Origin: Collimonas humicola
GTDB taxonomy: Bacteria; Pseudomonadota; Gammaproteobacteria; Burkholderiales; Burkholderiaceae_D
Direction: 5' to 3'
Assembly (NCBI RefSeq): GCF_018304945.1
Contig: NZ_JAGQEE010000007.1
Coordinates: 124,001-188,000 of the forward strand
Length of the DNA: 64,000 nucleotides
The translations under genes and the position numbers were made by a program. The notes beneath the pieces are model-generated. The model saw nothing but the letters and a program-made list of their open reading frames with translations, did not search any database and had not been told where the DNA came from. Positions 45,247 through 53,269 of the stretch are shown piece by piece. Within the stretch, counting starts at the first letter, position 1. Each line of letters opens with the position of its first letter.

Positions 45247-46005
45247 CTACATCTGCTTGAACAGATGGATGAAGCTGCGGCTCACTTCCAGCTTTTCCGT
45301 ATGTCCCTTGACCAGCACCTGATGGCGGCCGCGCATGTCGCGCGTGATGCCGTCGATGGCGTTGACGTTCACCAGCGTGGCGCGGTGGATCTGCCAGAAC
45401 AGGTCGGGATCGAGTTCCTCCGCCAGGTCGCGCACCGGCTTGCGGATCAGTGCTTCGTAGGTGGCGGTCTGGACGCTGGTGTATTTTTCGTCGGAACGGA
45501 AAAACAGGATTTCCTGCACCGGAATCAGGCGCAGCTGCTGGCCGATGCTGGCCTGTATCCATTGCAGGTAGACCGGCTTGGCGGCGATTCCCATCTGCTT
45601 GGCCAGCTGGGTCAGCATCGAGCTCATGTCGGTCGGCGCCGTACTCGTGCTCAGGCGTGCCTTGAGGCGCGTTACTGTCAACCCCAGGCGTTCCGCTTCG
45701 GCCGGTTTCAGGATGTAGTCGACGGCGCCGTGTTCGAAGGCTTCGATGGCGTATTCGTCGTATGCCGTGATGAAAACGATATGGCTTTTTCCGCCGATTT
45801 CCTGCGCTGCCTGCAAGCCGGTCTTGCCGGGCATGCGGATGTCGAGGAAGGTGAAGTCGGGTTCCAGCTGGTCGACCAGTTCGATGGCTTCATCGCCATT
45901 CTTGGCTTCGCCGACGATCTCCAGTTCCGGCCATGCCTGGCTCAGGCGCAGGCGGATCTGGTCGCGCATCAGGCGCTCGTCATCGGCAATGATTGCAGTA
46001 GGCAT
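45247..46005 (-). CDS. LytTR-family response regulator
   Basis: 252-residue two-component regulator. Receiver domain (about 1-120): acidic pocket 'AIIADDERLMRDQIRLRLSQ', phosphorylated Asp in 'DFTFLDIRMPGKTGLQAAQE' and switch Thr/Lys in 'VFITAYDEYAIEAFEHGAVD' and 'ILKPAEA'. Output LytTR domain (about 155-250) with 'ILFFRSDEKYTSVQTAT' and 'FWQIHRATLVNVNAIDGIT'. It is the last gene of a same-strand run starting with two small secreted proteins and the histidine kinase, and is the likely partner of that kinase. LytTR proteins bind direct repeats about 21 bp apart. Confidence 0.93.
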   Translation of the reverse strand: MPTAIIADDERLMRDQIRLRLSQAWPELEIVGEAKNGDEAIELVDQLEPDFTFLDIRMPGKTGLQAAQEIGGKSHIVFITAYDEYAIEAFEHGAVDYILKPAEAERLGLTVTRLKARLSTSTAPTDMSSMLTQLAKQMGIAAKPVYLQWIQASIGQQLRLIPVQEILFFRSDEKYTSVQTATYEALIRKPVRDLAEELDPDLFWQIHRATLVNVNAIDGITRDMRGRHQVLVKGHTEKLEVSRSFIHLFKQM

Positions 46006-46025
46006 GGGCGGATTTTAACAAGTAA

Positions 46026-46733
46026 TTAGCGTTTCTTGACGGAGCCGGAACCCATGATGCTGGAACGCACCTGCGGGTCGCCGAGATAGGATACATCGCC
46101 CGAGCCGGCGGTGGAAACCGACAGCTGCTTGCTGGCATAAACATGGGCGTCGCCGCTGCCGACGATCGACACATGGGTGTTTTCCGCCATCAGGTCGAAG
46201 CCGTCGTAGTCGCCGCTGCCGGCGATCGAGACGCGCAGGTCGCGGGTCTTGCCCTTGACCTTGATATCGCCGGCGCCGGCGATGGAGGCATTGACGTTGG
46301 GCGAATTGAGTTCGCCGCTGACGGAGCCGGAACCGGCGATCGAGATCTTGACGACGTCCTTTGCGCTCAGCTTGCCGACCACCTTGAGATCGCCAGAGCC
46401 AAAGATGCTGAGGCCGTTGACGTCAGGGGCGGTGAGGTAGACGTTGATGTCGTGGTGGCTGCTGCCGCTGAAAATCACTTTCAGCACCGAACCGCTGACA
46501 TCGAGCCGGACCCGCGAAGCGAGCCCGTTTTCTGCTTCGATCACGGCTGGCTTGGCCGGCCCCTGGGTCAGGTAGACGTTCACTGCGTCCATGATTTCGA
46601 CCTGCTGGAAACTGCCTACCTGGCGTTCCGTCCTGGTCACGTCCGCAGCCGCGCTGGAGCTGTAGCCGAGCAATGGAATCATTGCGGCGGCGGCCAGCGC
46701 AAAAAAGAGGGCAAAACGTGATGGCGCTTTCAT
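46026..46733 (-). CDS. Exported DUF2807 (head-GIN-like) protein
   Basis: 235-residue protein with a signal peptide ('FALFFALAAAAMIPLLG' region). The mature part is a beta-helix-like array of DUF2807 turns, with repeated G-S-G-D/G-S-G-S corners: 'IFGSGDLKVVG', 'IAGSGSVSGEL', 'IAGAGDIKVKG', 'IAGSGDYDGFD', 'IVGSGDAHVYA', 'TAGSGDVSYLG' and 'IMGSGSVKKR'. The spacing (about 18-20 residues) suggests a right-handed helix. It sits between the kinase and the regulator genes, 20 nt from the latter. Its function is unknown; envelope location and placement suggest it takes part in sensing or is a target. Confidence 0.85.
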   Translation of the reverse strand: MKAPSRFALFFALAAAAMIPLLGYSSSAAADVTRTERQVGSFQQVEIMDAVNVYLTQGPAKPAVIEAENGLASRVRLDVSGSVLKVIFSGSSHHDINVYLTAPDVNGLSIFGSGDLKVVGKLSAKDVVKISIAGSGSVSGELNSPNVNASIAGAGDIKVKGKTRDLRVSIAGSGDYDGFDLMAENTHVSIVGSGDAHVYASKQLSVSTAGSGDVSYLGDPQVRSSIMGSGSVKKR

Positions 46734-46774
46734 ATGTGCTCCTGTTACTTCTGTGGCGAATTTGAGCTGTGGGC

Positions 46775-48175
46775 TTAGGCTTTCTTGCCGTTGCCGACGA
46801 CCTGGTAAGGCACTTCAATCGTCGAACATACGCCGCTCGGCGTGTTGGGTGCAATCTCCAGCTGTGCGGCGTTGCCGTGCAGCAGTTTGAGGCGATCGCG
46901 GATACTTTGCAATCCCAGGCCGGTGCCGTTGCTGGTGACGGCGCCGAAACCGAGGCCGTCATCCGTCACGCTGACGCGCAGCTTATTGTCGGCCACTTCG
47001 GCCTTGATGCGCAAGGTGCCGCCGTCAGTCTTGCTTTCCAGCCCGTGCTTGATGGCGTTTTCCGCCAGCGACTGCAGCATCATCGGCGGGAAGGCGGCGC
47101 TGCGCAGCCCGTCGGAAACCTGGATGTCGACGACCAGGCGTTCTTCCATGCGCATCTTCAGCAAGTCCAGGTAAGCCCGCACGATGTCGACTTCGCGGCC
47201 GAGCGAGGTGACGGTGGCGGTTTCCCGCATTTGCGGCAGCACAGCCCGCAGGTACTGGATCAGGCGTTTTTGCATGGCCGAGGCGCGCGGCGGATCGGTT
47301 TCGATCAGGTAGTCGACCGAGGCCAGGGTGTTGAACAGGAAATGCGGTTCCACCTGGGCCTGGATCATCTGCATCTTGGCTTCCGATACTTCGCGCTGCA
47401 GGTTGGCGTGCTCGGCGGCGGCGTTGGCCGCCTGGGCGCGCGCTTCGGCGCGCTTCTTGCCGCCCATCAGAGCCTTGGTGCCGAACAGGCCGATCAACAG
47501 CAGCAGCACAAAATTCACAAACCATTCCGATGATTTCTTCTGGTAGCGGGCGACCTGCTGCTCTGCTTTTTCGGCGGCGGCTTCATGGATCGCGGCCACG
47601 GCGTCGTTGATTGCCTGGTTCACATCCTGGGCGGCGTCCGGCGGCAGTTTCAGGTCCAGGCTGGCGGCGTTGGGAGTGGCCGGCGCAGGTGCGGCTGGCG
47701 CGGCCGGCGGCGCAGGCGGTTCCTTGGGTTCCGGCATGGAGTCGGAAGCCAGCGGCGCTGCCGGCGGCGCCACCTTGCTGCCGGCGTTGCCGTTTTCGTC
47801 GGATGCGGCGCTGGCGGCTGTTGCAGCCGAGGCCGGTGTGCTGGCGGCGTCGTTACTGTCGTCGTAGGTATAGGCCTTGATATGGACGCCGCTGCCGTCG
47901 ATGCGGATGTCGGCATTGCCCTTGCCGGCCTTGGCCGCTTTGTTGGCCTTGCTGTCGTGCCGGCTGACGCGGTCGATGATCACCACGTTTTCATTCGAAG
48001 AGAACAGCGTTTCCTGCAGAATGCTGGCGCCGATCATGACCAGTATCGCAAACAGGAAAAACTTCCACCATGAGAGTTGTGTAACCCAGCCCGCTATCTT
48101 GTCGAAGGTCTGCGACAGATAGACTGTGGCAGTGGAAGCATTTTTCTTCAGTGAGTCTAGCGATTCAGGAGTCAT
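46775..48175 (-). CDS. LytS/YpdA-type membrane histidine kinase
   Basis: 466-residue sensor kinase of the His_kinase (PF06580) family. One N-terminal helix ('WWKFFLFAILVMIGASIL') precedes a periplasmic region of about 190 residues that is Ala/Pro-rich ('PEPKEPPAPPAAPAAPAP'). A second helix ('WFVNFVLLLLIGLFGTKAL') leads to the phospho-acceptor His in 'MIQAQVEPHFLFNTLASV' and the ATP-binding lobe with 'LAENAIKHGLESKTDGG', 'VTDDGLGFGAVTSNGTG' and 'GLGLQSIRDRLKLLHG'. ATG 48175 gives 'MTPESLDSLKKNA'. Paired with the LytTR regulator downstream. Confidence 0.92.
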   Translation of the reverse strand: MTPESLDSLKKNASTATVYLSQTFDKIAGWVTQLSWWKFFLFAILVMIGASILQETLFSSNENVVIIDRVSRHDSKANKAAKAGKGNADIRIDGSGVHIKAYTYDDSNDAASTPASAATAASAASDENGNAGSKVAPPAAPLASDSMPEPKEPPAPPAAPAAPAPATPNAASLDLKLPPDAAQDVNQAINDAVAAIHEAAAEKAEQQVARYQKKSSEWFVNFVLLLLIGLFGTKALMGGKKRAEARAQAANAAAEHANLQREVSEAKMQMIQAQVEPHFLFNTLASVDYLIETDPPRASAMQKRLIQYLRAVLPQMRETATVTSLGREVDIVRAYLDLLKMRMEERLVVDIQVSDGLRSAAFPPMMLQSLAENAIKHGLESKTDGGTLRIKAEVADNKLRVSVTDDGLGFGAVTSNGTGLGLQSIRDRLKLLHGNAAQLEIAPNTPSGVCSTIEVPYQVVGNGKKA

Positions 48176-48196
48176 AGGGTGGCAAGCCAGGTTGTG

Positions 48197-48217
48197 CGGC
48201 AACTTTCAAAGTTGCCG
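48197..48217. promoter_or_regulatory. Perfect 21-nt palindrome between small secreted protein and kinase genes
   Basis: 'CGGCAACTTT' - C - 'AAAGTTGCCG' forms a perfect inverted repeat 22 nt upstream of the kinase start codon. Each arm contains G-C-A-A-C-T-T, also found in the direct repeat at 49006-49036. It may be a hairpin between genes of one operon or an operator. There is no T tail on the minus strand, so it is not a standard terminator. Confidence 0.5.
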
Positions 48218-48274
48218 TCATTTTAAACGGAACCGACACGGCAGTCTGGTCGTTTTGCTATACGGAATTAGGTG

Positions 48275-48547
48275 TCAAAGCGCGCTGAGCGCTGCTGTCG
48301 CGGTGGTCGCGTTTTTCTTGCGTGCTATTTTTTTCATGTTCTGCGCGCGGTCCTGCGCCGCGTACATGGCTTTTTCTTCCGGCGTCAGGCGCTTGCCGAT
48401 GATGACGATGGGCGGCATCAGCAGCGGGATGTCGTCCGATTTAACGGCGCCTTGCCTGGCTGCTCCGGCGGCCATGGCTGGTGCTGCGCTCATGCCAAGG
48501 GTCGCTAACAGGGCGGCGGCGGCCAGCAATCTAGATGATGTGTTCAT
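48275..48547 (-). CDS. Small secreted protein with one V-I-I-G-K-R-L motif
   Basis: 90-residue protein (start ATG 48547). Signal peptide of about 27 residues ('LLAAAALLATLGMSAAPAMA', cleavage near A-M-A-A). The mature part has a single copy of the motif 'PPIVIIGKRLTPEEKAMYAA' (residues 45-64), then a basic, Ala-rich tail. It shares signal, leader (C-G-G-A-G-A-A-T-R-C-A-A upstream of the ATG), motif and Gln/Asp-rich spacer with the 106-residue neighbour upstream, so the two are paralogues. It does not match a family I can name. Confidence 0.75.
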   Translation of the reverse strand: MNTSSRLLAAAALLATLGMSAAPAMAAGAARQGAVKSDDIPLLMPPIVIIGKRLTPEEKAMYAAQDRAQNMKKIARKKNATTATAALSAL

Positions 48548-48605
48548 TTGCATTCTCCGGGGATGGATCTGCGACTAAACGATGCTTAAGTGGCGGATAA
48601 AGGTC

Positions 48606-48926
48606 TTAGATGACCGCTTTCTTGCGATTGCCTTCTTGCTGCGCCATGACTTTCGGTTCGCGGTTCAGGCGTTTGCCGATGATGGTGACGGTTGGCAGGC
48701 AGTCGTCCTGTTGCGCCAGGGCCAGCTTTTCTTGCACTGTCAGGCGCTTGCCGACGATGGTCACGGTTGCCAGCAGGTCGCTGTGGACTGGACGCTTGCC
48801 GACGATGGTGATGGTTGGCAGTGTCGAGACTTCCGCTTGCTGCGGTGCCGCCTGTGCCGAGCTGACGCCGAAAGCCAGGGTAGCGATGGACAGGGCGGCG
48901 ATCAGGGCTTTGTTTGCTGTGTTCAT
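48606..48926 (-). CDS. Small secreted protein with three V-T-I-V-G-K-R repeats
   Basis: 106-residue protein, ATG 48926 with 'GGAG' 7-8 nt upstream. After a signal peptide ('ALIAALSIATLAFGVSSAQA') there are three copies of one unit: 'LPTITIVGKRPVHSD' (36-50), 'LATVTIVGKRLTVQEK' (52-67) and 'LPTVTIIGKRLNRE' (77-90). Each has the beta-strand-like core T-x-T-I-V/I-G-K-R. A lone Cys76 precedes the third. The basic G-K-R core could be a protease site, and the core also resembles TonB-box sequences of outer-membrane receptors. Not recognised as a named family. Function is inferred only from the operon with the LytS/LytTR pair. Confidence 0.75.
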   Translation of the reverse strand: MNTANKALIAALSIATLAFGVSSAQAAPQQAEVSTLPTITIVGKRPVHSDLLATVTIVGKRLTVQEKLALAQQDDCLPTVTIIGKRLNREPKVMAQQEGNRKKAVI

Positions 48927-49005
48927 TTGTATTCTCCGTTAAGTGACTTGATGACTTGTTTAGGTGGCTGACGTTGTTGCATGTCGTCACTTTAGGGAGG
49001 GGCAG

Positions 49006-49036
49006 GACAAGTCGCCAGCTGCTTGCGACAAGTTGC
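49006..49036 (-). promoter_or_regulatory. 21-bp-period direct repeat, candidate LytTR binding site
   Basis: 'GACAAGTCGC' (49006-49015) and 'GACAAGTTGC' (49027-49036) are the same 10-mer offset by 21 bp. On the coding strand of the small-protein operon this reads G-C-R-A-C-T-T-G-T-C, whose end resembles the C-C-G-T-T-x-G-T-C half-site of AlgR. The site lies 80-110 nt upstream of the start codon, a typical activator position. The regulator gene is in the same operon. Confidence 0.5.
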
Positions 49037-49120
49037 AGGAAATGCGGGACAGAATACAAAAAAGCGGGACTGGGCTGCATCGGGTTTTTCGCGCTTTTGG
49101 CAGCCTGAGGGGCGGCTAGC

Positions 49121-49321: not shown

Positions 49322-50194
49322 ATGACCGCCGCCGCTTTTCCAGTTAACAACCTTGCCAGGCCCGCCGCGCCGTTTCGCGTGATGCCCGGGTTTCGCCTGT
49401 CGCTCGGGTTTACGCTGTTCTACCTGGCCCTGATCGTCTTGATCCCCTTGTCGGCCGTATTCCTCAAAACCTTCACCCTGAGCTGGGATGGTTTTATCTC
49501 CGCGGTCACTTCGCCGCGGGTGATGGCTTCCTATCGCCTGACTTTCGGCGCCTCTTTATTGGCAGCGCTGCTGAATGCATTCTTCGGCGGCATCGTGGCC
49601 TGGGTGCTGGTGCGCTATGAATTCCCCGGCAAGAAGCTGATCGACGCCCTGGTCGACCTGCCGTTTGCCTTGCCGACGGCGGTGGCCGGCATCGCCCTGA
49701 CCGCGCTGTACTCCAGCAACGGCTGGATCGGCCGGTATCTGGAACCGCTCGGCATCAAGGTCGCGTTTACCCCGCTCGGGGTGCTGGTAGCGCTGACCTT
49801 CATCGGTTTGCCGTTCGTGGTGCGTACCGTTCAGCCGGTGCTGGAAGATGCCGAGAAAGAGCTGGAAGAAGCGGCCGCCAGCCTCGGCGCCAATCATTGG
49901 CAGACTTTTACCCGGGTGATTTTTCCAACGATCTTTCCGGCCTTGCTGACCGGCTTCGCCCTGTCTTTCGCTCGCGCCACCGGCGAATACGGCTCAGTGA
50001 TTTTCATCGCCGGCAACATGCCGATGGTGTCGGAGATTACCCCCTTGTTCATCGTTACCAAGCTGGAGCAGTACGATTACGCCGGCGCCACCGCGATCGC
50101 CGTTGTCATGCTGACAGTGTCGTTCCTGCTGCTGCTGGCGATCAATGTCTTGCAAGCCTGGACCCGCAAGCGCGGCCAGTCTGCGCAAGCATAG
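49322..50194 (+). CDS. cysT: Sulfate/thiosulfate ABC transporter permease CysT (CysU)
   Basis: 290-residue membrane permease of the CysTWA importer. Family segments are 'FTLFYLALIVLIPLSAVFLK', 'ALVDLPFALPTAVAGIALTA', 'LEDAEKELEEAAASLGANHW' (EAA loop contacting CysA) and 'GFALSFARATGEYGSVIFIA'. It is followed by cysW with 9 nt between the stop and the next start and by cysA and a CysB-type gene in the same direction. Start ATG 49322 follows 'AAGAGGACG'. Confidence 0.95.
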   Translation: MTAAAFPVNNLARPAAPFRVMPGFRLSLGFTLFYLALIVLIPLSAVFLKTFTLSWDGFISAVTSPRVMASYRLTFGASLLAALLNAFFGGIVAWVLVRYEFPGKKLIDALVDLPFALPTAVAGIALTALYSSNGWIGRYLEPLGIKVAFTPLGVLVALTFIGLPFVVRTVQPVLEDAEKELEEAAASLGANHWQTFTRVIFPTIFPALLTGFALSFARATGEYGSVIFIAGNMPMVSEITPLFIVTKLEQYDYAGATAIAVVMLTVSFLLLLAINVLQAWTRKRGQSAQA

Positions 50195-50203
50195 GAGCTT
50201 GAC

Positions 50204-51184
50204 ATGAGCGCAAGCGCCAGCAATTTCAATCCAGCCGCCGCTACCGTCGTCAATGCGCAGGCAGCGCCGAGCGCCAGGCTGCAGCCGCGCGGCGAACCTG
50301 TTCATGTGCCGAACGCAACGCTGGAACCGCTGTGGGTGCGCGCGCTGCTGATGAGCGTGGCGCTGCTGTTCCTCACCCTGTTCCTGGTGGTGCCGCTGCT
50401 GTCGGTATTTGCCGAGGCCTTCAAGAAGGGCTGGGAAGCGTATCTGGCGGCGATCGTCGAGCCGGACGCGGTCAGCGCCATCAAGCTGACCTTGCTGACG
50501 GCGGCGATTGCCGTGCCGCTCAACCTGGTGTTCGGCATCGCCGCTTCCTGGACCATCGCCAAGTTCGAATTCCGCGGCAAGAACATTCTGCTGACCCTGA
50601 TCGATCTGCCGTTCTCGGTATCGCCGGTGATTTCCGGCCTGATCTATGTCTTGCTGTTCGGCGCCCAAGGCTGGTTCGGCCCATGGCTGCGCGAGCATGA
50701 CATCAAGATCCTGTTTGCCGTGCCGGGCATCGTGCTGGCCACCGTGTTCGTGACCTTTCCGTTTGTCGCCCGCGAACTGATTCCGCTGATGCAGGCGCAG
50801 GGCAGCGAAGAGGAAGAGGCTGCGCTGGTGCTGGGTGCATCCGGCTGGAAGACCTTCCGCCATGTGACCTTGCCTAATATTAAGTGGGGCCTGCTGTACG
50901 GCGTGATCCTGTGCAATGCGCGCGCCATGGGCGAGTTCGGCGCGGTGTCGGTGGTGTCCGGCCATATCCGAGGCGAGACCAACACTATTCCTTTGCAGGT
51001 CGAGATCCTTTACAACGAATACAACTTCCAGGCCGCCTTTGCGGTGGCTTCATTGCTGGCGTTCCTGGCGCTGCTGACGCTGGCGCTGAAATCGTTCATC
51101 GAATGGCGTTTGCGGGAAACGGTGCCGTTGTTGCATCAGCCGCTGCATCAGCCGGCACAACAATCAGGACAGGAGCAGGCATGA
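50204..51184 (+). CDS. cysW: Sulfate/thiosulfate ABC transporter permease CysW
   Basis: 326-residue permease with a cytoplasmic N-terminal tail of about 45 Ala/Pro-rich residues before the first helix. Family segments are '[20 protein letters not shown]', '[20 protein letters not shown]' (EAA loop), '[20 protein letters not shown]' and '[20 protein letters not shown]'. 'AGGAG' lies 7 nt upstream of ATG 50204. Its last codons overlap the cysA start (ATGA, 4-nt overlap), which indicates translational coupling. Confidence 0.95.
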
Positions 51185-52269
51185 GCATCCAGGTAAGCAA
51201 TATCAACAAGCGTTTCGGCGAATTTGTCGCGCTCAACAATGTGTCGCTGGAGTTCCCGACCGGCGAACTGACCGCGCTGCTGGGGCCGTCCGGCTGCGGC
51301 AAGACCACTTTGCTGCGGATTATCGCCGGCCTCGAAGCGCAGGACAGCGGCCAGGTCTTGCTGGAGGGCGAAGACGCTTCCTCGCGCCATGTACGCGAGC
51401 GCCAGGTCGGCTTTGTGTTCCAGCATTACGCCTTGTTCAAGCACATGACCGTCTTTGAAAACATCGCCTTCGGCCTGCGCGTCAAGCCGCGCCCCCAGCG
51501 CCCTAGCGAAAGCGCGATCCGCGACAAGGTGACGCGCCTGCTGGAACTGGTACAGCTGGACTGGCTGGCCGACCGCTATCCGCCGCAGCTGTCCGGCGGC
51601 CAGCGCCAGCGCATCGCCCTGGCGCGCGCGCTGGCGGTGGAGCCGCGCGTGCTGCTGCTGGACGAGCCGTTCGGCGCGCTCGACGCCAAGGTGCGCAAGG
51701 AACTGCGGCGCTGGCTGCGCCGCTTGCATGACGAGCTGCATGTCACCAGCATCTTCGTCACCCACGATCAGGAAGAAGCGCTGGAAGTGGCGGACCGGAT
51801 CGTGCTGATGAACAAGGGCAATGTGGAGCAGACAGGGGCGCCGCAGCAGGTCTACGACAATCCGGCTTCGCCTTTCGTGTATGGATTCCTGGGCAACGTC
51901 AACCTGTTTCACGGCCGTGTGCACCAGGGCGTGCTGGACAGCGGCGGCATGCGTTTCGCCGCGCCCGACCATGCCGAGGCAGACGATGCGCAAGGCATCG
52001 GCTATGTGCGCCCGCATGACCTGGAGATCGACCGCTACAGCGCAGGCGGCGAGGGCATCGTGGTGCAGCTCAAGCGCGCCCACGCCATCGGTCCGCTGGC
52101 GCAGCTGGAACTGCAGCGCCGCGATCGCAGCGACAACGGCGACGCCGGCCTGATCGAAGCCGTGATTTCCAGCGAACGCTTCCAGCAACTCAATTTGAAA
52201 GATGGCGAAACCCTGCTGGTGCGTCCGCGCCGCCTGCAGGTGTTCGTCGATCAGCCTTCCATCCGCTAA
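51181..52269 (+). CDS. cysA: Sulfate/thiosulfate import ATP-binding protein CysA
   Basis: 362-residue ATPase. Walker A '[19 protein letters not shown]', Q-loop '[20 protein letters not shown]', signature '[15 protein letters not shown]', Walker B '[19 protein letters not shown]' and H-loop '[15 protein letters not shown]' are intact. The extra C-terminal domain of about 120 residues (after '[13 protein letters not shown]') is the CysA/TOBE-type regulatory extension. ATG 51181 overlaps the stop of cysW by 4 nt. Confidence 0.97.
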
Positions 52270-52279
52270 GGAGAATAGA

Positions 52280-53269
52280 ATGAATTTCCAGCAATTACGC
52301 TCGATCCGCGAAGCCGCCCGTTGCGGCTTCAACCTGACTGAAGTGGCGAATGTCTTGTTTACTTCGCAACCCGGCGTCAGCCGCCAGATCCGCGAACTGG
52401 AAGAAGAGCTCGGCGTCGATATCTTCATCCGCAACGGCAAGCGCCTGATCGGCCTGACCGATCCCGGCAAGGGCATCCTGAAGATCGTCGAACGGCTGCT
52501 GCAGGAAGCAGAAAACCTGCGCCAGGCCAGCCAGGAATATTCCGGCGAAACCAGCGGCACCCTGACCATCGCCGCCACCCATACCCAGGCGCGCTACGCC
52601 TTGCCGCGCGTGGTGCAGGGCTTCCGCGCCAGTTTCCCGGATGTCCGCATCGCCTTGCAGCAAAGCTCGCCGGAACATATCGCCGACTGGGTCATCTCGG
52701 GCAAGGCCGATGTCGGCATCGCCACCGAGGGGCTGACCCAGTTCAAGGAGCTGATTTCCTTCCCTTGCTATGAATGGAGCCACGTGCTGGTGGTGCCGGA
52801 AGGCCATCAGCTGCTGGCGGTCGAAGGGCCGATCAGCCTGGCGGACCTCGCTGCCTACCCCTTGATCACCTATGACGTCGGTTTCACCGGCCGCGGCCAT
52901 ATCGACGATGCCTTCCGCACCGCAGGCATCACGCCGGACATCGTCCTGACGGCGATGGATTCCGACGTCATCCAGCAGTATGTGGCCCTGGGGCTGGGGA
53001 TCGGCCTGGTGGCGTCGATGGCGACCGAGCACAGCAGCCAGAACGGCTTGCGCACGATCGATGTATCGCATCTGCTGGCCTCCAACGTGACGCGGCTGGC
53101 AGTGCGGCGCGGCGCCTACCTGCGGTCGTATACCTACGATTTCATCTTGCAGTTTGCGCCGCAGCTGAAGCGCGAGGACATCATCGAAGCGCTGCATGCG
53201 GAGCCGCACGGCGCCGGCAGCAGCGTGCACAAGGTGGATTTTGAAGAGCGCGTCCTGAAGATCGCCTGA
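52280..53269 (+). CDS. cysB: CysB/Cbl-type LysR regulator of sulfur assimilation
   Basis: 329-residue LysR-type regulator. The N-terminus 'MNFQQLRSIREAARCGFNLT' and helix-turn-helix 'VANVLFTSQPGVSRQIRELE' are the CysB/Cbl signature. The effector domain has 'LTIAATHTQARYALPRVV' and 'LQQSSPEHIADWVISGKADV' (sulfate/acetylserine pocket region). It ends the cysTWA operon and is likely the activator of both sulfur operons in the window. CysB and Cbl are close; which one this is cannot be settled from sequence alone. The ATG follows 'AAGGAGAATAGA'. Confidence 0.92.
   Translation: MNFQQLRSIREAARCGFNLTEVANVLFTSQPGVSRQIRELEEELGVDIFIRNGKRLIGLTDPGKGILKIVERLLQEAENLRQASQEYSGETSGTLTIAATHTQARYALPRVVQGFRASFPDVRIALQQSSPEHIADWVISGKADVGIATEGLTQFKELISFPCYEWSHVLVVPEGHQLLAVEGPISLADLAAYPLITYDVGFTGRGHIDDAFRTAGITPDIVLTAMDSDVIQQYVALGLGIGLVASMATEHSSQNGLRTIDVSHLLASNVTRLAVRRGAYLRSYTYDFILQFAPQLKREDIIEALHAEPHGAGSSVHKVDFEERVLKIA

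Follow-up and report, generated by a model that had tools for sequence, protein, structure and literature searches.

Among the closest described systems are the LytS/LytTR pairs BtsSR, YpdAB and AlgZR, the peptide quorum-sensing systems AgrCA and ComDE, whose sensors AgrC and ComD are polytopic membrane proteins, the toastrack-containing PSP/Lia systems and the TonB-dependent receptors together with the group B colicins. The locus compared with them here is an operon of Collimonas humicola situated in a 64,000-nucleotide stretch of contig NZ_JAGQEE010000007.1 (positions 124,001 to 188,000; henceforth "the window", to whose first letter all coordinates refer), which encodes, in this order and all on the minus strand, two small proteins (S1 and S2), a LytS-type sensor kinase, a DUF2807 (toastrack) protein and a LytTR response regulator. 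Taken as a whole, the explanation that we moderately favour is that this operon is the control centre, as well as one output, of an Oxalobacteraceae cell-envelope defence regulon, the S proteins being outputs of that regulon.

With BtsSR, YpdAB and AlgZR the operon has in common a PF06580 kinase, a LytTR regulator and a direct-repeat site (predicted here), the half-sites of which, TTCGTC and TTCATC, resemble the AlgR sites CCGTTCGTC and CCGTTCATC, respectively, as given in the consulted part of PMC4064291. It differs from these three systems in its kinase, which has two hydrophobic stretches and a low-complexity loop, and in its candidate regulon, which consists of toastrack, efflux, peptidase and S genes; the regulator also fails the BtsR equivalog (140 bits vs. 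a cut-off of 246). AgrCA and ComDE likewise combine a kinase with a LytTR regulator, but a polytopic sensor, a processing gene and a conserved cleavage context are all missing from the operon. The PSP/Lia systems, as portrayed in the consulted part of an envelope-stress survey (PMC11237479), are alike in that their DUF2807 and HAAS genes are associated with a two-component system, a link that the promoter element suggests for the genes treated here, and they differ in PspA and LiaI-LiaF-TM, neither of which is among the five genes of the operon (the genome was searched for neither). That same part of the survey reports LytTR together with toastrack in Firmicutes, unifies DUF2807, DUF4097 and DUF2154 under toastrack, has HAAS overlap DUF1700 and makes no mention of the S proteins. 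The TonB boxes, lastly, which according to the consulted part of PMC11658791 bind the C-terminal domain of TonB by beta augmentation and also occur outside of the receptors, in colicins, are short strand motifs that follow the export leader in receptors, as do the units of the S proteins; the S proteins differ in lacking both plug and barrel, in having the motif in as many as three copies and in looking like regulon outputs.

A promoter element speaks for this explanation. The regions upstream of S genes from many genera show, in a common order, a TTCATCCC-like distal half-site, TGCA, a TTCGTCGCA-like proximal half-site lying 21 nt from the distal one, 29 nt, TWMAGTG and CATC. Upstream of S1 the pattern TGCANNNNGTCGCA-N29-TWMAGTG is matched exactly (48988..49037), with the proximal half-site TGTCGCAA at 49023..49030, the distal half-site TGTCCCGC 21 nt further upstream at 49044..49051 and a -10-like box, TAAAGT, at a fixed distance (48989..48994), all on the minus strand. 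When half-sites were compared at different offsets, identity was 4.14/10 at offset 21 vs. approximately 2-3 at most offsets, with offset 10 also reaching 4.5, and bases outside the selection pattern were conserved as well (C in 88% at -9, in 80% at -8 and in 91% at +55). A GACAAGT direct repeat proposed in the original prediction is indeed present at 49006 and 49027, i.e., 21 nt apart, but across genera it is another pair that is conserved, one overlapping only the right GACAAGT copy, and the GACAAGT pair has been replaced by the half-site pair as the candidate regulator site.

A matrix was built from 43 thinned kinase promoters, all from loci without a linked S gene, and compared with a control set of 500 upstream regions: 46 of 47 S promoters exceeded the control's 99th percentile, as did 40 of 41 when the six S genes that had been found via the element were omitted. 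At least 21 of the S genes in this test lie in fetched stretches (about 8-11 kb) that do not contain the kinase. As the core pattern by which the training sites were selected came from the S promoters themselves, which makes the test partly circular, it was rerun with the 17 core columns blanked, whereupon 38/41 S promoters still exceeded the 95th percentile of the control and 26/41 the 99th. Two controls (L179 and L180) that scored high overlap the kinase open reading frame (ORF) and were kept in the control set; the S gene of L053 was omitted from the promoter set, its start not being settled, and the near-identical pairs L057/L063 and L066/L067 are each counted twice. All six S genes from two Massilia-like genera pass the full matrix.

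On the scale of whole genomes, a first own-genome pattern with a wrong 9-N spacer missed the site in the window and gave no excess (253 sites vs. 401 in the control), and the corrected pattern at up to three mismatches gave none either (33 vs. 61), for which reason only matches with 0-1 mismatch were used, the reversed pattern serving as the control. Within a family sample of 195 Oxalobacteraceae genomes, 11 other Collimonas genomes included, 99 genomes contain 302 sites vs. 32 for the reversed pattern. A kinase orthologue, defined by a best E <= 1e-109, is found in 92 of the 195, and 88 of these have a site (289 sites vs. 12 for the control), as opposed to 11 of the 103 genomes without an orthologue (13 sites vs. 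20), a co-occurrence for which Fisher's test, uncorrected for kinship, gives p = 2e-37. Outside of the family, 14 of 386 genomes of an order-wide sample contain 16 sites vs. 32 in the control. With up to two mismatches allowed, 39 of the 47 named loci of Oxalobacteraceae type (L262-L307 and L322) have the element ahead of the kinase gene, hence autoregulation is predicted; of the 31 loci outside of the family's kinase group (L308-L339 minus L322), four (L315, L323, L324 and L338) have it upstream of the kinase or its S gene. Since S genes have the element whether they are linked to the kinase or not, and since its occurrence in genomes follows that of the kinase, control of the S genes by the regulator is very probable, a suggestion of the original prediction that thereby gains support by inference.

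To see what else might be under the element, the ORFs downstream of 79 sites were inspected, and 30 hand-chosen proteins, some of them encoded by second genes, were scanned against Pfam. DUF2807 was found in eight, outer-membrane efflux protein (OEP) in four, and HlyD-type adaptor, ABC ATPase, M1 peptidase and S9-type peptidase in two each; M13, M61, HAAS, Rce1, DUF493 and WXXGXW were encountered once apiece, and four proteins had nothing over the Pfam cut-off. In the Collimonas humicola genome itself, a second exact site precedes an OMF-MFP-RND operon (L340, C19:323500-331100; MFP and RND by eye), and that site is near-identical (0-1 mismatch) in ten other full-size Collimonas genomes. Elsewhere, S genes have a DUF2807 gene next to them on the downstream side (L343, L354 and L368 by Pfam, L392 by phmmer). 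As the element tracks the kinase and its other genes are those for efflux, peptidases, ABC transporters and toastrack/HAAS proteins, the S proteins look like regulon outputs, and the regulon itself is quite likely to be one of envelope defence, as judged from the families of the proteins encoded.

Some further genes under the element may be noted in passing. HAAS (DUF1700-like) genes are seen at L342 (Pfam) and, by eye, at L349, L352, L358, L371 and L380, the one at L358 being followed by a DUF2807 gene. Membrane proteins of about 125 residues (by eye) are encoded at L345, L355, L364, L365, L369 and L383, and the two that were scanned (L345 and L364) show no Pfam family over the cut-off. Two genomes belonging to a single genus have a DUF493 (YbeD-like) gene downstream of the element (L346 by Pfam, L351 by eye).

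As for the operon itself, ORF coordinates bear out five same-strand genes with gaps of 58, 99, 41 and 20 nt, given that S2 is read from 48547 and the kinase from 48175. S1 (48606..48926, minus strand) is an exported protein of 106 aa, its leader judged by eye, and S2 (48275..48553, minus) is its paralogue of 92 aa, or 90 aa if the start is at 48547; as had been noticed originally, there are three units in the former and one in the latter. The remaining identities were also read correctly, as Pfam scans over the cut-offs gave His_kinase/HATPase_c for the kinase, DUF2807 for the exported toastrack protein (46026..46733, minus) and Response_reg plus LytTR for the regulator (45247..46005, minus). 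The kinase (PF06580 and HATPase_c; 46775..48175, minus) is read from the ATG at 48175, the TTG start of the ORF tool being at 48202. It has only two hydrophobic stretches (residues 34-59 and 218-240, numbered from the ATG), and its AlphaFold model (predicted local distance difference test, pLDDT, 57) starts with a pair of long helices, continues with a stretch of low confidence in which there is one beta-hairpin, and ends with a long helix that contains the second hydrophobic stretch and the catalytic part, in agreement with the two-stretch topology. The large periplasmic region ascribed to it is right in length, between the two hydrophobic stretches, but is modelled there with low confidence and with a single hairpin (residues 89-100 from the ATG, IxIDxxGIHI). 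By eye, this conserved hairpin (residues 98-109 of the TTG-start form) resembles the turn of the DUF2807 repeat; it looks doubled in G014 (L045, 5205-6617) and in some Undibacterium kinases and is absent in Iodobacter.

The order S1-S2-kinase-DUF2807-regulator is kept in 10 of the 11 other Collimonas genomes sampled, which argues that the units are not there by chance. The eleventh (G102, 1.7 Mb) has a kinase remnant with stops only, and neither an S gene nor a promoter site. The closest named relative of the kinase, from Collimonas sp. OK307 (75% identity in a scan that may omit the window's own genome), is encoded in the same five-gene arrangement. Of the 195 family genomes, 131 match the kinase at E <= 1e-40. 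Forty kinase loci from other genera were compared: every one has the regulator close by, phmmer (E <= 1e-5) detects a DUF2807 gene at none, and nine (L163, L165, L168, L188 and L190-L194) have an S gene directly upstream, the other 31 having none in that place. Together with L045, these nine loci extend the S-kinase arrangement from Collimonas to six other genera of the family, and among the 79 named loci a protein with three copies of LPRIEVxGKR is encoded upstream of the kinase in an Iodobacter genome, where what by eye is a cupin-like gene separates the two, and in one metagenome-assembled genome. Linkage of the S homologues to the kinase/regulator pair, a point which the original prediction had asked about, thus holds in Collimonas and the six genera, but not in Undibacterium, Janthinobacterium and Massilia, where they are found elsewhere in the genome. 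One Undibacterium genome even has several diverged S paralogues that are unlinked to the kinase and have the promoter element.

The S proteins themselves are without a named family, as had been supposed: neither S1 nor S2 has a Pfam match in a whole-protein scan, NCBIfam gives nothing over the cut-off, no PHROG family was matched, and a profile of the S family has no match in PDB at E <= 0.1. The distant members are small and have, by eye, an export leader or transmembrane anchor; their units, of which there are one to three, are each about 25 residues long and composed of a core such as IQTVVISAKR and a following LTxEQKLAFD; those seen in Janthinobacterium, Massilia and relatives have one unit and about 64-105 residues as called. 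The LTxEQK part may bear some likeness to the LTxxQ of Spy/CpxP. In an even sample of the order (399 genomes), the S-family profile matches in ten genomes, namely nine of the 13 from the family and one other, in which the match is to a 785-aa frame. The S proteins are probably exported and disordered.

What the units of these proteins resemble is the TonB box. The matrix used for this comparison was made from 24 boxes taken by eye from 27 plug-domain receptors of the Collimonas humicola genome, and the units of S1 score 14.7 (unit 1, LPTITIVGKR, residues 36-45, 48792..48821), 12.1 (unit 2, LATVTIVGKR, residues 52-61, 48744..48773) and 12.7 (unit 3, LPTVTIIGKR, residues 77-86, 48669..48698), while that of S2 (MPPIVIIGKR, residues 46-55 of the 92-aa form, 48389..48418) scores 9.0, all four being on the minus strand. 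As a background, one of 37,854 peptide windows from the ORFs of the stretch reaches 10, and 23 of 542,656 from 1526 ORFs of other loci score at least 12 (about 4 per 100,000), although by eye these 23 include receptors and S proteins. In Iodobacter, too, units (LPRIEVVGKR) and boxes (VERVEVVGSS) are alike. Pfam finds no plug or barrel domain of TonB-dependent receptors in S1 or S2.

In the mechanism that we propose, the LytS kinase would sense some envelope disturbance, and the phosphorylated LytTR regulator would bind the 21-bp direct repeat, whose half-sites are AlgR-like and which closely precedes a weak -10 box, thereby activating, as the promoter element suggests, its own operon, the S genes, RND/TolC efflux, ABC transporters, exported peptidases and toastrack (DUF2807)/HAAS genes. 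The S proteins would then offer one to three TonB-box-like strands and act by adding a beta strand to a periplasmic partner. The first candidate for this partner is the C-terminal domain of TonB, in which case they might damp TonB-dependent uptake under stress, and the second the toastrack protein encoded beside S genes. That they are periplasmic effectors rather than signals appears reasonably likely. TonB as the partner can be put forward only tentatively, the odds being clearly against it, and the more specific idea that they are stress-induced periplasmic TonB decoys or adaptors, keeping TonB from receptors exploited by toxins and drugs, is a shade less probable still.

A number of observations weigh against this explanation. 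On the side of the promoter, L063, L065 and L071 fall below the 95th percentile of the control when the core is blanked, the S gene of L072 is without the element and is the sole matrix failure, four of the six Massilia-like S genes need more than two mismatches to fit the short pattern, four kinase-bearing genomes (G027, G071, G106 and G188) have no site, and the aforementioned 11 genomes have a site without a kinase orthologue. On the side of the regulon, the Collimonas humicola genome has just three sites at up to one mismatch (at the operon, at the efflux operon and within a fimbrial-usher-like gene, by eye), and the putative "envelope stress" label comes from the family names of 30 chosen proteins. 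On the side of the units, AlphaFold gives no confident model of S1 (pLDDT 47, six sequences), and in a lineage test of units against boxes, which is a weak one, those of Collimonas and Iodobacter best fit their own boxes and those of Undibacterium tie. Moreover, the TonB likeness was noticed post hoc, the choice of boxes was made by eye, the motif is no more than a short, beta-strand-like one, and some second units score low (e.g., 1.5 in L055 and 5.1 in L056). The post hoc likeness, the low second units, the shortness and degeneracy of the motif and the residue before the Gly/Ala, often V/I in Collimonas units and mostly T in TonB boxes, would suit a coincidence, in which the units are generic short beta strands, e.g., envelope-binding basic motifs. 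We give this a substantial chance, albeit one short of even, as the best units of 25 relatives score 7.3-22.1 against the rarity of background windows at 12 or above, and as the LPT/LPP/IQT residues leading into the units and the alternation of Gly and Ala ahead of the basic residues match TonB boxes too.

According to the original prediction, S1 and S2 are precursors of secreted peptide signals read by the kinase in the manner of Agr/Com, and the repetition of the units, the Sec-type leaders (by eye), the likely autoregulation and the position of S genes, which in Collimonas and six other genera immediately precede the kinase gene and in Iodobacter are near it, would all be in keeping with this. 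No processing site is conserved in every unit, however: unit 2 reads AKR, not GKR, in 7 of 11 Collimonas S1 proteins, and elsewhere in the family G, A, S, T and H alternate in the place of the Gly (e.g., AKR, SAKR and TAQR), so GKR as a prohormone-like signal for amidation and cleavage was rejected. Nor does Pfam find a peptide-processing exporter or protease among the five genes, and the kinase, with its two hydrophobic stretches and low-confidence loop, the unlinked S genes, the diverged Undibacterium paralogues among them, and a regulon whose identified genes are mostly those of envelope defence all speak against released peptides, which we regard as improbable. Somewhat less so, yet still unlikely, is that the S proteins are CpxP- or LiaF-like feedback modulators, which would quench or tune signalling by beta-strand addition to the DUF2807 protein or to the IxIDxxGIHI hairpin of the kinase. 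S-kinase and S-DUF2807 neighbourhoods do recur, the hairpin in the kinase loop is conserved, and toastrack has been proposed as a docking surface (consulted part of PMC11237479), but at most kinase loci of other genera an S gene is missing from the upstream side, a DUF2807 gene is detected at none of them, and the Iodobacter kinase does without the hairpin (by eye) despite an S protein being present.

From the envelope-defence explanation follow predictions of what one LytS/LytTR pair controls, through which promoter code and with what autoregulation, across a large environmental family of soil and freshwater bacteria (Collimonas, Janthinobacterium, Massilia, Duganella and Undibacterium). It connects a single regulator with toastrack proteins, efflux and exported peptidases and defines a small-protein family without a match in the databases searched. 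Should the units bind TonB, bacteria would be making soluble TonB boxes that regulate outer-membrane uptake. Neither a small TonB-box protein nor this regulon is described in the titles and abstracts of the open-access literature searched, and the consulted parts of PMC5552118, PMC4690342, PMC8929069 and PMC13384398 have no bearing on the S proteins.

Divergently from S1, at 49322-53269, lies what by eye looks like a sulfate/thiosulfate ABC transporter operon (two permeases and an ATPase) followed by a CysB-like LysR regulator, and in the intergenic region between S1 and the transporter, a block nearer to the latter is almost invariant across 11 aligned Collimonas genomes.

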